NCBI GenBank assembly: GCA_015478655.1
Contig: JADMIJ010000007.1
Coordinates: 1 to 64,000, forward strand
Source of the DNA: Acidimicrobiales bacterium
Lineage (GTDB): Bacteria > Actinomycetota > Acidimicrobiia > Acidimicrobiales > RAAP-2
Length of the DNA stretch: 64,000 bases
Direction of reading: 5' to 3'
A program made the translations under genes and the position numbers. Below, piece after piece: positions 26,127 through 46,661 of this stretch; within the stretch, counting starts at the first letter, position 1; each line of letters begins with the position of its first letter. The notes under the pieces are model-generated. The model had not been told where the DNA came from. It worked only from the letters and a program-made list of their open reading frames with translations, and did not search any database.

Positions 26127-27359
26127 TCAGCCGGGGGCCACCGGCTTGGGCTCTTTGGGCAGGCCGAGCACGCGCTCACCGACGATGTTTCGCTGGATCT
26201 CCGCCGTCCCGCCCCAGATCGTCTCCGAACGCGAGAAGAAGAACGAGGCCTGCAGGTCGCTCACCGGGTAGTCGTCGCGGCCACGCTTGAGCCGAGCGTC
26301 CACGGCGTCGGTCGGGTCGCCGGTGAGGATCTGGCCGTCGAGCCCCAGGATGTCCAGGGCCAGCTCCATGGTCTCCTGGTGATGCTCGGACCAGAACATC
26401 TTGTTGCCTGCCCCCAGTGCGTCGGCGTGGTGGGTGCCATTGAGGGAGTCGGTGAGAGCGCGGTAGCCGTTGATCTCCATGATCTTGACGTTGGTCCACG
26501 CCCGGGCCAGGCGCTGGCGGATCAGCGGGTCGGACACCCTCCCGTTCCTCTGGGCCTCGGCGACGATCTGGTCGAGCTCGCGCCGGAAGCGGCGGTACCC
26601 GGTGGTGGCCGACGAGCCCCGTTCGAAGCCCAACGTCGTCATGGCCACCTTCCATCCGTTGTTCACACCTCCGACGACATTCTCCTTGGGGCATCGGGCG
26701 TTGGTGAAGAAGATCTCGTTGAAGTCCGCGCTCCCGTCGACCTGTTCGATCGGCCGGACCTCGATGCCGTCCTGTTTCATCGGCACCAGGAGGTAGGAGA
26801 TGCCCGCGTGCTTGGGAGCGTCAGGATCTGTGCGGGCCAACAAGAAGATGTAATCCGCGAACTGGGCCTGGGTCGTCCACACCTTCTGCCCGTTGATCAC
26901 CCACTCGTCGCCGTCCACTTCGGCCCTCGTCTTGAGCGAGGCCAGGTCGCTGCCGGCGTCCGGTTCGGAGAAGCCCTGGCACCAGGAGATGGTGCCTCTC
27001 AGGATGCCGGGGATGAACTGTTGCTTCTGGTCCTCGGTTGCCCACTGGAGGATGGTCGGTCCGACCAGGGTGTCGCCGAAGAAGTCGGCCCGCAGGGGTG
27101 CTTCGACCCGGGCGAACTCCTCGTTGAGCACCACGGACTCGATCAGGGACAGGCCCTTGCCACCGTACTTCTGGGGCCACGATGCACAGATCCAGCCACC
27201 GTCGTAGAGCCTCTTGACCCAGTCGCGATTGAACGCCTTCTTCCTCTCCTTGGACATCGAGAATCCGGGCGTGCCCCAGCCTTCAGGTAGGTTGTCGATG
27301 AGCCACTGGCGGATCTCGGCTCGGAACTCCTCGGTTTCGGCGGGATACCTCAGGTCCAT
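26127..27359 (-). CDS. Acyl-CoA dehydrogenase
   Basis: A 410-residue FAD-dependent acyl-CoA dehydrogenase that oxidises an acyl-CoA to the 2-enoyl-CoA. It has the full-length N-terminal helical domain (FRAEIRQWL onward), the middle beta domain with SWCQGFSEPDAGSDLASL (~130-147) and WVINGQKVWTT, and the C-terminal helical domain. The actinobacterial FadE-like enzymes used on long-chain or steroid substrates look similar, but substrate cannot be read from the sequence. The catalytic Glu was not assigned. It stands alone between glycan genes. A TAACCT box 6 bases before the ATG indicates a leaderless message. Confidence 0.92.
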   Translation of the reverse strand: MDLRYPAETEEFRAEIRQWLIDNLPEGWGTPGFSMSKERKKAFNRDWVKRLYDGGWICASWPQKYGGKGLSLIESVVLNEEFARVEAPLRADFFGDTLVGPTILQWATEDQKQQFIPGILRGTISWCQGFSEPDAGSDLASLKTRAEVDGDEWVINGQKVWTTQAQFADYIFLLARTDPDAPKHAGISYLLVPMKQDGIEVRPIEQVDGSADFNEIFFTNARCPKENVVGGVNNGWKVAMTTLGFERGSSATTGYRRFRRELDQIVAEAQRNGRVSDPLIRQRLARAWTNVKIMEINGYRALTDSLNGTHHADALGAGNKMFWSEHHQETMELALDILGLDGQILTGDPTDAVDARLKRGRDDYPVSDLQASFFFSRSETIWGGTAEIQRNIVGERVLGLPKEPKPVAPG

Positions 27360-41325: not shown

Positions 41326-43947
41326 CTACCGGGGAGGCAAGCCCAGCGCCTCGGCGAGGGTGGCGGCCAGGCCCCTGCTCTCCCGTTCTCCGAAGGCTAC
41401 ATTGACGGCCAGCCGTTCGAGGATCTGCTCCACCGTCTTGCCCCCTGCCGGGAGCGGATGGGCCTCGACGAAGTCGGTCACCTGGGCGGCGAGCTCGGGT
41501 GGCGCGCAGAGGCCGCGCACCCCCTCGAGCATGCGGGGGAGAATGTTGGAGGGGAACTTGGCCACCACGGCGTCCCAGTCCTCGGTGATGCGGTGCCAGG
41601 CCGTCGGTCCGGTGACCCGGTTGGCGACCAAGGACTGCAGGACGAAGGGCGCGTTCTGGGTCCGGACCTCGGACATGGCCAGGTCGAAGGTCCGCGAGGC
41701 CAGGCCGAGGTCAGTGAAGGACGCCAGGGCGTAGAGGTAGCGGTTCTCCTCCTGGGGGGTGACGGGGGACCGGTAGTGGGAGAGGAACGCCTCGTACTCG
41801 GAGACCCCACCCGTGCCGGCCACGATGTCCAGGACGGCCGACTCGGTGTCCGGGTGGAGCGCAGAGGACCCCGCGGCCGCGAACCGACGGGCAGCCTCGG
41901 CCTGGATGTCGGGGTCGTCGCCGATGGTCCCGAGGGTCCGGAGCACGGACGCCCGCAACGACGGGGTGCGCTCACCGTCGTCGTCCCTGGGGTCCCACCC
42001 GAGATCACGGGCGAGCGGACCGAGCAGGGCCCGAATGGCCTGGGCCAGCACGGGACGGTCGAGGTCGGGTACCACCCGGTCGAACAGGCCCAGGGTCCCG
42101 AGCACGACGGACCACACGCTGGGATCGCCTTCGGCCGAGTCGACGAGGGCCCGTGCCAAGCGCAGCACATCGGGCAGCAGAGCCTGGCCGGCGAGGGCGG
42201 CGGCCCAGGTGTCGGACACCAGGTTGTACCGCTCCAACGGCTCGAGGTCGGCCAGCCGGCCGGCCAACCGCTCGACGGCGGCGGTGGGGTAGGCGACGCG
42301 GAAGTAACCCGAGCCGCCGGCGTTCACCACGCAGGGCCCGGCTCCGCCGTCGCCGTCGGTCCTGCCGGTGGGCCCTTCGAGGAGGACCGGCAACGGATCC
42401 TCGCTGTCGCCGTCGAGCCACCGTGCCAGCACGGGGACCTGCCACCCCGAACCGATGGCGCCGCCCGGGTCCCCCCGGTAGGAGAACGGGGTCTGGGCCA
42501 GCGAGCCGTCGTCGCCCACACGGACCAGCGGATAGCCGCCCTGGTTGATCCACGTGTCCATGATGGTGCGCACGGCCCGTCCGCTGGATCGTTCGAGTGC
42601 ATCCCACAGGTCGGAGGTCTCGGTGTTGCCGTGGCGGTGGGTCGTCAGGTAGTCGTTGATGCCCTCGCGGAAGACGTCCGGTCCGACGAACTGCTCGAGC
42701 ATGCGGAGCACGCTCCCGCCCTTCTGGTACGTGAGGACATCGAACATCCCCTGGGCCTCCTCGGGGCGACCGACGGGGAATTCCACGGGGCGGGTGGCGT
42801 GCAGGCCGTCGACGGCCATGGCCGCCTCCCGCTCGACACCGAAGCTGACCCACCGCTGCCATTCGGGGCGGAAGGCATCGACGGCCAGCACCTCCATGAA
42901 GGTGGCGAACGCCTCGTTGAGCCAGATCCCGTTCCACCACTTCATGGTGACCAGGTCGCCGAACCACATGTGGGCGACCTCGTGGCAGATCACGTCGGCC
43001 ACCCGCTCCAGCTCCACCCGGGCCGCCTGGGCCGGGTCGACCAGCAGCACCGACTCGCGGAAGGTCACGCACCCGAGGTTCTCCATGGCGCCGAAGGCGA
43101 AATCGGGGATGGCCACCAGGTCGAGCTTGTCGGCCGGATAGGGGATGCCGAAGTAGTCGGTGAAGAAGTTGAGGGCGTGGGCCCCCACGGCCAGGGCGAA
43201 CGGGGTGAGTACGCCCTTGCCGGGTGGATGGACGATGCGCAGGGGCACGCCGTTGACGTCGACCGGGTCGGTGGCCTCGAGCGGGCCGACGATGAAGGCC
43301 ACCAGATAGGTGGACATCACCATGGTCGGGGCGAAACGCACCCGGCGCTTTCCGTCGGGCTCCGGGGACTCCTCGACCACCGAGCCGTTTGAGTAGGCGG
43401 CCAGTGCCTCGTCGACCACCAGGGTGATCTCGAAGGTGGCCTTGAGCTCGGGCTCGTCCCAGCACGGGAAGGCCCGGCGGGCGTCGGTGGACTCCATCTG
43501 GGTGGTGGCGATGGTGTGGTCCACGCCGGCCTCGTCGGTGAAGGTGGACCGGTAGAACCCGTGCAGCTTGTCGTTGAGGATGCCGGTGAAGGCCAGGTGC
43601 AGGGTGGCCGGCCCCGGCACGAGCGGCTCGGAGAAGGTGAGGGTGGCCCGCTCCTCGTCCGGATCCAAGTCGATGGCCGTCGGAGCCAGCGCGTACCCGC
43701 CATCGGGATTGCCGTCGTTGAGCTCGGCGAAGGTGATCTCGAGCTCGGCGGCATTGAGGGTGATCGTCGGCGTGGACTCCTCGACCGTGACGTCGATCTC
43801 GATATCGCCGGCGAAGGTGGCAGCCGGCAGGTCCGGCGTGAGCACCAGCCGGTAGGCGTGGGGACGGACCGATGTGGGTAGCCGGTAGGCGGGGGTGCCG
43901 TTGGGTCCGTGCGTGCCGGTGGGGTCGTCGGTTGTCGGAGCGCTCAT
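41326..43947 (-). CDS. pepN: Aminopeptidase N (M1 family zinc metallopeptidase)
   Basis: An 873-residue cytosolic aminopeptidase that removes N-terminal residues from peptides. The substrate-exopeptidase motif is GAMEN (286-290) and the zinc site is HEVAH (322-326) with the third ligand in NEAF (Glu345). Domain order is the N-terminal beta barrel, the thermolysin-like catalytic domain and the C-terminal ERAP1-like helical domain. Length is usual for the actinobacterial PepN. It is divergent from the PfkB kinase gene, 22 bases apart. A TAGCCT box 6 bases before the ATG predicts a leaderless mRNA. Confidence 0.95.
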   Translation of the reverse strand: MSAPTTDDPTGTHGPNGTPAYRLPTSVRPHAYRLVLTPDLPAATFAGDIEIDVTVEESTPTITLNAAELEITFAELNDGNPDGGYALAPTAIDLDPDEERATLTFSEPLVPGPATLHLAFTGILNDKLHGFYRSTFTDEAGVDHTIATTQMESTDARRAFPCWDEPELKATFEITLVVDEALAAYSNGSVVEESPEPDGKRRVRFAPTMVMSTYLVAFIVGPLEATDPVDVNGVPLRIVHPPGKGVLTPFALAVGAHALNFFTDYFGIPYPADKLDLVAIPDFAFGAMENLGCVTFRESVLLVDPAQAARVELERVADVICHEVAHMWFGDLVTMKWWNGIWLNEAFATFMEVLAVDAFRPEWQRWVSFGVEREAAMAVDGLHATRPVEFPVGRPEEAQGMFDVLTYQKGGSVLRMLEQFVGPDVFREGINDYLTTHRHGNTETSDLWDALERSSGRAVRTIMDTWINQGGYPLVRVGDDGSLAQTPFSYRGDPGGAIGSGWQVPVLARWLDGDSEDPLPVLLEGPTGRTDGDGGAGPCVVNAGGSGYFRVAYPTAAVERLAGRLADLEPLERYNLVSDTWAAALAGQALLPDVLRLARALVDSAEGDPSVWSVVLGTLGLFDRVVPDLDRPVLAQAIRALLGPLARDLGWDPRDDDGERTPSLRASVLRTLGTIGDDPDIQAEAARRFAAAGSSALHPDTESAVLDIVAGTGGVSEYEAFLSHYRSPVTPQEENRYLYALASFTDLGLASRTFDLAMSEVRTQNAPFVLQSLVANRVTGPTAWHRITEDWDAVVAKFPSNILPRMLEGVRGLCAPPELAAQVTDFVEAHPLPAGGKTVEQILERLAVNVAFGERESRGLAATLAEALGLPPR

Positions 43948-43953
43948 TCGGGC

Positions 43954-43963
43954 AGGCTACCGT
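43954..43963. promoter_or_regulatory. Overlapping divergent -10 boxes in AGGCTACCGT
   Basis: On the minus strand TAGCCT (43954-43959) ends 6 bases before ATG 43947 of pepN. On the plus strand TACCGT (43958-43963) ends 6 bases before GTG 43970 of the PfkB gene. The two boxes share two base pairs, so polymerase can hardly occupy both at once. The identical 10-mer recurs at 45754-45763 between another divergent pair. Confidence 0.65.
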
Positions 43964-43969
43964 CGGACC

Positions 43970-45097
43970 GTGCACAGTGACCTCCAATCCAGTGATTCTC
44001 CCCAACTTCCCGATGCCGGTGGCGACGGCGTGACGGAGGGGGGCGACGATGCCGTGATGCCGGCGACGTCGGGCGGCACGGCCGAGTCCCCGTCCGGTCC
44101 CCGGCTCGATGTGGTGGCCATCGGCAACGCGCTGGTGGACGTGCTGGCTTCGGCCAAGGACGAGGACCTGGATGGCCTCGGTCTGGTCAAGGGGACCATG
44201 GCCCTGGTCGACCAGGCCCGGTCTGAGTCCATCTATGCCGCCATGGGGCCGGCCACCGAGGCCTCGGGAGGATCGGCCGCCAATACGGCGGCGGGGGTGG
44301 CCGCTCTCGGGGGTCGGGCGGCCTTCCTCGGGCGGGTGGCCGACGACGGCTTCGGCATGGCGTTCACCCACGACATCCGCTCGATCGGGGTGGCCTTCGA
44401 TCCGACGCCGGCGCCGGCCATCCCCGGGGAGGCGGTCACCGGCCACTGCCTGGTGCTGGTGACCGGAGACGCCGAACGCACCATGGCCACCCATCTCGGC
44501 GTGGCCTCCGATTTCGGGTCGGTCGACCTGCACGGTGGCCACCTCTCGTCGACCCAGGTCGTCTACCTCGAGGGCTACCTGTGGGAACAGCCCTCGGCCA
44601 AGGCGGCCATGCGGGAGGCGATCGAGGTTGCCCACGGCAACGATGCGGCGGTGGCCCTCTCGCTGTCGGACCCGTTCTGCGTCGAGCACCACCGGGCGGA
44701 ATTCCTCGAACTGCTCAAGGGGGACCTCGAGATGGTCTTCGCCAACGAAGACGAGATCACACTGCTGTTCGGAGCGCCCGACTTCGACGCGGCCGTGGGA
44801 GCGGTCACGGAGACCGGGGTGCTGGCCGTCCTCACCCGCGGTGCCGCCGGATGCGTGGTGGTCACTGCCGCGGGAGCGGTGGAGGTCCCGGCCGTCCCCG
44901 TCGAGCGGGTGGTCGACACCACCGGCGCCGGTGACCTCTTCGCGGCCGGCTTCCTCTACGGGATCACCAACGGGCTCTCCCCAGAAGCGTCCGCCCGTCT
45001 GGGTGGGTTGGGTGCCGCCGAAGTCATCTCCCACGTCGGCGCCCGGCCCCAGGCCGACCTGCGGGCCTTGGCGGTGGAGGCAGGTCTGTTCAGCTGA
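43970..45097 (+). CDS. PfkB-family carbohydrate/nucleoside kinase (adenosine-kinase-like)
   Basis: A 375-residue kinase. After a ~40-residue unconserved start come VVAIGNALVDVLA, the glycine-rich GGSAANTAAGVAALGG substrate part and, near the C-terminus, the PfkB signature DTTGAGDLFAAGFLYG with the catalytic Asp. The PHx-type features and the small lid fit ribokinase/adenosine kinase relatives; bacterial members phosphorylate sugars or nucleosides with ATP. The exact substrate is open. GTG 43970 fits the leaderless spacing; the frame is open to 43895 but would run into pepN. Confidence 0.88.
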   Translation: MHSDLQSSDSPQLPDAGGDGVTEGGDDAVMPATSGGTAESPSGPRLDVVAIGNALVDVLASAKDEDLDGLGLVKGTMALVDQARSESIYAAMGPATEASGGSAANTAAGVAALGGRAAFLGRVADDGFGMAFTHDIRSIGVAFDPTPAPAIPGEAVTGHCLVLVTGDAERTMATHLGVASDFGSVDLHGGHLSSTQVVYLEGYLWEQPSAKAAMREAIEVAHGNDAAVALSLSDPFCVEHHRAEFLELLKGDLEMVFANEDEITLLFGAPDFDAAVGAVTETGVLAVLTRGAAGCVVVTAAGAVEVPAVPVERVVDTTGAGDLFAAGFLYGITNGLSPEASARLGGLGAAEVISHVGARPQADLRALAVEAGLFS

Positions 45098-45137
45098 GCG
45101 GTCCTGACGGAGCGACGCCAGGACCCGGCGTGGCCAA

Positions 45138-45743
45138 TCAGGTGGGGGGAGACTGGGCCGGGCGGAAGGCGAAGGGCAGGTCGCCGATGCGCACCAATAC
45201 CGAGGCTACCGAACGCCCCAGCGGAGCCAGGGCGTCGTCGAGGCTGGCCGGGTTCTCGAGCAGGCTCTCATCGAGCTGGCAGGATCCCTCGTAGGAGACC
45301 TCGATGGCGCATTCGGGGCTGTCCCCGCTGTCATCGGGCAGGACCTGCTCGATGGTGGCAGACCCGCGGACCAGCGGTTCGTCCCCCAGCACCTCCAGCT
45401 TGTCCGGGAGCACCTCGATGAGGGGTGCCACCTCGGGGATGCCGGCAAGGCCCTGGACCCGGAAAGCGATCTCCACGAGCACTTCGGGGAGCTCGTCGGG
45501 CTCCTCGCCGATGGCCCAGCTCCGGTAGGCGGTCTGGCTCCATGTGGGCCAGTCCAGGCTGGTGTCGACCCGGATCCGCGCCGGGCGCTCCTCGCCCGGG
45601 AGGCTGTACGAAGTCTCGAAGCTCACGTCCCCCAGGAAGACATCCACTTGAAACCGCTCTTCGACGGCCTGACGCTGCAGCAGCGCGGCCTCGAACGCAT
45701 GGCGGTGCGAGCCGACGAGTTGGGTGAACACGTGGTCGAGCAT
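45138..45743 (-). CDS. Conserved hypothetical protein
   Basis: A soluble, acidic 201-residue protein I do not recognise. It starts MLDHVFTQLVGSHRHAFEAALLQR, then shows alternating strands (VDVFLGDVSFETSYSLPGE, RVDTSLDWPTWSQTAYRSW, VLVEIAFRVQGL, CAIEVSYEGSCQLDES) that suggest an all-beta or SRPBCC-like fold. There is no signal peptide or membrane segment. It is divergent from the GDPD gene over the second AGGCTACCGT promoter and convergent with the PfkB gene. The open frame extends to 46517, but that part only mirrors the GDPD gene. Confidence 0.65.
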   Translation of the reverse strand: MLDHVFTQLVGSHRHAFEAALLQRQAVEERFQVDVFLGDVSFETSYSLPGEERPARIRVDTSLDWPTWSQTAYRSWAIGEEPDELPEVLVEIAFRVQGLAGIPEVAPLIEVLPDKLEVLGDEPLVRGSATIEQVLPDDSGDSPECAIEVSYEGSCQLDESLLENPASLDDALAPLGRSVASVLVRIGDLPFAFRPAQSPPT

Positions 45744-45753
45744 GGCGGGGCAG

Positions 45754-45763
45754 AGGCTACCGT
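45754..45763. promoter_or_regulatory. Second AGGCTACCGT divergent -10 element
   Basis: TAGCCT (minus) lies 10 bases before ATG 45743; TACCGT (plus) lies 7 bases before ATG 45771. It has the same 10-mer and the same two-base overlap as 43954-43963. Confidence 0.6.
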
Positions 45764-45770
45764 TCTTCTC

Positions 45771-46661
45771 ATGCCCCCCTCCTCCGATCCGCCCAAGCGC
45801 TCGGCGTGGGTGGATCGCCGGGTCATCGCCTACGCCCACCAGGGAGGGGCCTGGGAAGCCCCGTCGTCTACGCTGCATGCCATCGGGGCCGCCGTCGGAG
45901 CCGGGGCCACCGGTATCGAGCTGGATGTCCACGCCACCGCGGACGGCCAGTTGGTGGTGTGCCACGACGCCACGGTGGACCGGACCACCAACGGGAGCGG
46001 CCTCATCGCCGACATGCCGTTCGACGCGCTGCGTACGCTCGACAACGCCTACTGGTGGGCGCCAGGGGCGGATACCACGCCCGGGCTCGAACCCGACGGC
46101 TATCCGTTCCGAGGGCGTGCCCCCGACGATCGTCGTTTTCGCATCGCCCTTCTCGAGGAGGTGCTCGAGGAGTATCCCGGGGTGGTGCTCAACCTGGACA
46201 TCAAACAGACTGCGCCGGTCGTCGCCCCCTATGAGCAGGCGCTGGCGGCCATGCTCCGCCGCTTCCGTCGGGTCGACGACGTGATCGTCGCCTCTTTCAT
46301 CGACTCGGCCACCGACGCCTTCTCCTCGTTCGCCCCGGAGATCCCGACCTCGGCCGGGACCGGGGCCGTGGCCGGTTTCTTCCAATCGGTGCGGGCAGGC
46401 GAGACGCCCGCTCCCCTGCGCCACGTTGCCCTGCAGGTGCCGGCCAGCTACGGCGACGTCACGCTGGTCGACCTGCCCTTCGTCGAGGTGGCCCACGAGC
46501 AGGGACTGGCCGTCCATGTCTGGACCGTGGAGGAGGAGGAGGAGATGGAACGGCTGTGCCGGCTCGGGGTGGACGGGATCATCACCGACCGGCCCTCCGC
46601 CTTGGTAGCAGTGCTCAACCGCCTCGGTTCCGCCTGGCGGGTGCCGAGCCGACCCCGGTGA
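45771..46661 (+). CDS. Glycerophosphodiester phosphodiesterase family protein
   Basis: A 296-residue GDPD-type TIM barrel, which hydrolyses glycerophosphodiesters to glycerol-3-phosphate and an alcohol. The metal-site block is IAYAHQGGAWEAPSST (usual form HRG..ENT) followed by IELDVHATADGQLVVCHDATVDRTT. Later LNLDIKQT and VHVWTVEEEEEMERL and GVDGIITDRP complete the fold. The first His is followed by Gln instead of Arg, a mild departure that leaves the catalytic acids in place. Probably cytosolic, as no signal peptide is visible. ATG 45771 fits the -10 spacing; the open frame upstream to 45648 is antisense to the neighbour. Confidence 0.87.
   Translation: MPPSSDPPKRSAWVDRRVIAYAHQGGAWEAPSSTLHAIGAAVGAGATGIELDVHATADGQLVVCHDATVDRTTNGSGLIADMPFDALRTLDNAYWWAPGADTTPGLEPDGYPFRGRAPDDRRFRIALLEEVLEEYPGVVLNLDIKQTAPVVAPYEQALAAMLRRFRRVDDVIVASFIDSATDAFSSFAPEIPTSAGTGAVAGFFQSVRAGETPAPLRHVALQVPASYGDVTLVDLPFVEVAHEQGLAVHVWTVEEEEEMERLCRLGVDGIITDRPSALVAVLNRLGSAWRVPSRPR

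Follow-up and report, generated by a model that had tools for sequence, protein, structure and literature searches.

A shared 10-mer between divergent genes

The window analysed here, the whole 64,000-nt stretch from an Acidimicrobiales genome, carries the 10-mer AGGCTACCGT exactly twice, at 43954-43963 and 45754-45763, both times between the start codons of divergent genes, which raises the question of what one short word does at two such places. The initial annotation had read both copies as overlapping boxes, TAGCCT on the minus strand and TACCGT on the plus strand, 6-10 bases from the start codons. Reading of the sequence and a count of the word confirmed this layout at both gene pairs, with spacers of 6, 6, 7, and 10 bases. 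Judged from sequence, each 10-mer is in all likelihood a single bidirectional housekeeping promoter, with start sites that are predicted. The genes and putative promoter elements are as follows.

41326..43947, minus strand: aminopeptidase, family M1, 873 aa (PF01433, PF11838, PF17900)
43954..43959, minus strand: putative peptidase -10 box TAGCCT; predicted start site 43947, the A of ATG; T at -12
43954..43963, no single strand: site 1, putative double -10 box AGGCTACCGT, the TACCGT (plus) and TAGCCT (minus) boxes overlapping in the central TA, 43958-43959; kept in 17 of 18 orthologues
43958..43963, plus strand: putative kinase -10 box TACCGT; predicted start site 43970, the G of GTG; T at -12, the leaderless peak of the genus
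43970..45097, plus strand: PfkB-family kinase, 375 aa, GTG start (PF00294); start spacing kept in the genus
45138..45743, minus strand: conserved 201-aa protein of unknown function; of 148 genomes of the order, 76 have relatives
45754..45759, minus strand: putative -10 box TAGCCT of the conserved 201-aa protein; predicted leader of ~3-4 nt; 10-base spacing constant in the genus
45754..45763, no single strand: site 2, putative double -10 box AGGCTACCGT, boxes overlapping in the same way in the central TA, 45758-45759; kept in 17 of 18 orthologues; also present in two genomes of another family, G058 and G136
45758..45763, plus strand: putative phosphodiesterase -10 box TACCGT; predicted start site 45770-45771; spacing 7 here, 6 in most relatives
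45771..46661, plus strand: glycerophosphodiester phosphodiesterase (GDPD) family protein, 296 aa (PF03009)

Site 1 has the layout CAT-TCGGGC-AGGCTACCGT-CGGACC-GTG, with 6 bases to the kinase GTG at 43970 and 6 to the peptidase ATG at 43947 (minus strand); the two start codons are just 22 bp apart. Site 2, CAT-GGCGGGGCAG-AGGCTACCGT-TCTTCTC-ATG, has 7 bases to the phosphodiesterase ATG at 45771 and 10 to the ATG of the 201-aa protein at 45743 (minus strand). The whole 4.47 Mb genome contains four copies of the word, the remaining two lying outside divergent start pairs.

Pfam upheld the names first given to three of the genes, with matches to peptidase M1, PfkB kinase, and GDPD. Phage sequences hit by the kinase were uninformative. 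The 201-aa protein matched no model in Pfam or NCBIfam, and no relative of its family was found in the PDB; its homologs in the order indicate that it is a real gene product, because they mostly align from residue 1. Many residues are invariant in this family of ~200 aa (45138-45743, minus strand), for example in the segments LDWPTWSQ and ETSYSLPGE.

The leaderless -10 signal of the genus

Leaderless genes have a published signature, a TANNNT word with its first T about 12 bases ahead of the start codon (PMC3160421, PMC3898074). With gene calls from a simple home-made codon-score finder, which gave 869 genes in 1.14 Mb taken from seven genomes of the genus, this T fell at -12 in 67 of the 869 genes and at -13 in 42, with a shoulder of 16-25 genes at -16 to -14 and 3-13 genes at most other offsets; these statistics include both study loci in some of the genomes. 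Control words gave no peak at -12 in the same gene set. Upstream of 110 leaderless boxes no clear -35 element was found, TTG being slightly raised at 17-bp spacing (5 cases), and none was found in Mycobacterium tuberculosis either (PMC3898074).

Measured in this way, the distance from the T to the start codon is 12 for the kinase, 12 for the peptidase, and 13 for GDPD, at or next to the leaderless value of ~12, and the GDPD distance is 12 in nearly all relatives. The 201-aa protein has 16 bases between box T and ATG, constant in the genus, and a leader of ~3-4 nt is likelier for its mRNA than leaderlessness; its spacer between box and start codon, 10 bases in the genus, is often 9 in the order where GDPD is not adjacent. 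The predicted start sites of site 1, 43947 (minus) and 43970 (plus), coincide exactly with both start codons and are 23 bp apart, and those of site 2 are predicted to be 23-24 bp apart.

Around the box the genus prefers G[CG]TA[CG]C[CG]T, the core of which, GSTASC, equals its own reverse complement, and therefore a box on one strand readily yields most of a box on the other. At the position where an opposite box would have its A there is a mild excess (28 of the 110 boxes, with 17.9 expected, both study sites included).

These features suggest how the two sites might work. If sigma-A reads this preference with its palindromic core, an A four bases before the T of a TA, together with a T four bases after its A, would create a -10 box on both strands, and RNA polymerase could bind in either orientation and initiate ~12 bases from the T of this TA. 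Initiation at site 1 would then fall on the first base of both start codons and both mRNAs would be leaderless, while at site 2 one mRNA would have a leader of 0-1 nt and the other one of ~3-4 nt.

Conservation within the genus

All 10 bases are intact in 17 of 18 distinct orthologues at each site, in genomes that are mostly MAGs. Mean column identity is 0.994 inside the 10-mer and 0.79 (site 1) and 0.92 (site 2) in the 6-base flanks; the contrast appears weaker at site 2 because the flanks there are themselves well conserved. The sole exception, G011, has AGGCTACCTT at both sites (L018, L050), a concerted change for which we offer no explanation. In G003 (L127, L141) peptidase and kinase are set apart by ~1.6 kb of additional sequence that appears to be a gene; AGGCTACCGT has stayed with the peptidase, the relocated kinase has a TACGTT box of its own, and the divergent leaderless partner is lost.

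The evolution of the 10-mer supports a function. In a GC-rich genome a short word might recur in spacer DNA through chance similarity, with no promoter role, but only 0.04 copies are expected per window (the mean of 100 shuffles, none of which reached two), and the word is kept across families at exact leaderless distances on both sides, so that we regard this explanation as extremely improbable. Their exact leaderless distance, and a conservation that extends past the genus, make it very probable that the 10-mers are divergent -10 boxes that overlap.

Shared and separate boxes beyond the genus

When public genomes were scanned with the kinase, the divergent peptidase/kinase pair turned up in many MAGs, from Acidimicrobiales and from other actinobacteria. 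Near relatives carry AGGCTACCGT at this site; a separate group (L150, L151, L152, L160) carries ACGCTACCGT and L166 carries ACGCTACCCT, both of them shared forms, and L170 has ACGCTACTTT. Many relatives have two separate leaderless boxes for peptidase and kinase, often 9-21 bp apart (for example L145, L163), and relatives in the order with separate boxes retain the leaderless spacing for both genes. In L145 AGGCTACCGT lies beside the peptidase and a separate TAGCCT serves the kinase, which looks like an intermediate, its box already symmetric and its second gene still on a box of its own. At site 2, other families have AGGCTACCGT (G058, G136), ACGCTACCGT (G056), or the perfect palindrome ACGGTACCGT (L155), and G091 and G041 have separate boxes.

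On the kinase tree, which was made by a quick search method and gives no direction of change, the shared state needs at least four changes, some of them losses such as the gene insertion in G003 (L141), and the shared form appears more than once. The most likely origin of this form is an ancestral divergent region with two separate leaderless boxes, which then became shorter.

Outer relatives retain ANNNTANNNT and vary in the other letters (ACGCTACCGT, ACGCTACCCT, ACGGTACCGT). The conserved unit is ANNNTANNNT together with the leaderless spacing, a pattern expected from two -10 boxes but not from a regulator recognising all 10 letters. This bears on the idea that a common regulator or an alternative sigma factor acts at AGGCTACCGT and controls both gene pairs, to which the same word at two adjacent loci, and the parallel AGGCTACCTT in G011, would lend themselves. 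Distant orthologues change the inner letters and retain ANNNTANNNT, both boxes agree with the -10 preference of leaderless genes in general, no recognisable regulon emerges from the other copies of the 10-mer, and the two sites uncouple in G058, G136, and G056; we therefore consider such a site very unlikely.

Relation between the two sites

In those three genomes the site between the 201-aa protein and GDPD is shared and the peptidase/kinase site is separate, and because of this the two sites are seen to evolve independently and not to be kept together as one system. Using letter frequencies from 96 other leaderless boxes, the probability that two independent shared-TA boxes are identical by chance is ~0.0095, a value of about 0.01 that is partly due to the local preference GSTASC being itself palindromic. 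The identity of the two sites is unusual but not compelling, because there are several possible pairs per genome and the finding was selected for identity. The argument of the initial annotation that two identical cases 1.8 kb apart suggest design thus finds no support, given the uncoupling in relatives and the level of chance identity. Gene conversion between the two sites was considered as the main cause and rejected, because the two sites have different flanks and spacers and are uncoupled in relatives.

The arrangement is rare in the genus, since only three gene pairs among 148 divergent pairs sampled have it. In the 1.14 Mb, ANNNTANNNT with both starts at a distance of 12-16 occurred in 10 cases, all from these three gene pairs; in 299 other distance cells it occurred in 3 cases, and the controls ANNNATNNNT and TNNNTANNNA in none. 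Other matches from wider pattern scans for shared-TA boxes lying between starts were about as frequent as the controls, and therefore weight rests on the conserved sites only. Seven such matches were inspected; dapB lies opposite one of them and a Pup-ligase-like protein opposite another, and in most of the seven the frame on the other side is not gene-like.

Exact AGGCTACCGT occurs in 34 copies in 14 genomes of the genus, with each of the two sites accounting for 12. The suggested search for the word between divergent starts, when run, did not reveal a general divergent-promoter word, as 24 of the 34 copies, including the one in G003, sit at the two loci and none of eight inspected among the ten remaining copies lies between two divergent leaderless starts.

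Mutual exclusion and comparison with known promoters

The two bases common to both boxes bear on a further claim, that firing is limited to one direction at any moment and that neighbouring genes thereby exclude each other. The first part is physically reasonable for each binding event, since two polymerases cannot occupy one box simultaneously (also PMC12825309), and steric exclusion of this kind would be expected at both sites. As regulation it finds no support: in all five Escherichia coli bidirectional promoters tested, basal activity was too low for competition, and repression of one direction appeared only on strong activation of the other (PMC12825309). An evolved switch that makes the neighbours mutually exclusive through polymerase blocking could draw on that activated case, on the impossibility of simultaneous binding, and on the stability of the shared state across the genus, but many relatives, including other Acidimicrobiales, drive the same gene pair from separate boxes, an aminopeptidase and a sugar-type kinase have no evident functional antagonism, and no regulator site was identified at these loci. 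We consider the switch improbable and regard exclusion as something that physically accompanies each binding event, and not as what the promoter is for. That shared-TA boxes were selected as minimal couplers, imposing a fixed ratio or mutual exclusion on two leaderless genes, with adjacent loci converging on the same optimal 10-mer, also seems unlikely.

A bidirectional housekeeping promoter, the reading we prefer, is of a known kind. Prokaryotic bidirectional promoters described by Warman, Grainger and colleagues (PMC12825309, PMC10268837) likewise use a short pseudo-symmetric -10 region that serves both strands, with opposite-strand -10 elements that overlap and have reciprocal key bases, as seen at both sites here. 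Their divergent starts lie 7-25 bp apart, a range that includes the 23 bp (site 1) and 23-24 bp (site 2) predicted here from sequence; preferred distances are 10, 18, and 23 bp, with 18 bp commonest (PMC12825309), and the predicted 23 bp of site 1 fits the 23-bp class. The present sites differ from the published ones in that both mRNAs, at site 1, are predicted to be leaderless, the core is the GC-rich GSTASC, and the starts are predicted, not mapped. With the actinobacterial leaderless TANNNT promoters (PMC3160421, PMC3898074) they have in common a T located ~12 bases ahead of the start codon, together with the lack of a clear -35 motif, and differ in that one box would here be used in two directions. 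Compared on leaderlessness alone, site 1 resembles M. tuberculosis prpD/Rv1129c, where closely juxtaposed divergent promoters produce two leaderless mRNAs (PMC3898074), as is predicted here. A literature search of partial coverage found no bacterial promoter study that combines bidirectional with leaderless, and the trait that appears notable here is the predicted double leaderlessness and its good conservation.

What is known of bidirectional promoters comes chiefly from model bacteria in which start sites were mapped. In the present case sequence conservation by itself indicates a bidirectional -10 box held between two genes throughout a genus and beyond, with almost no untranslated DNA on either side, and relatives that have the same gene pair with separate boxes provide a natural series for relating box sharing to expression coupling.

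Other positions in the window have similar features. Leaderless-type boxes at 2175 (minus) and 33360 (plus) have an opposite-strand -7 A and are possibly bidirectional, although their start calls are uncertain, and the predicted leaderless starts at 27359, 41136, and 54409 (all minus) have TANNNT exactly 12 bases upstream.
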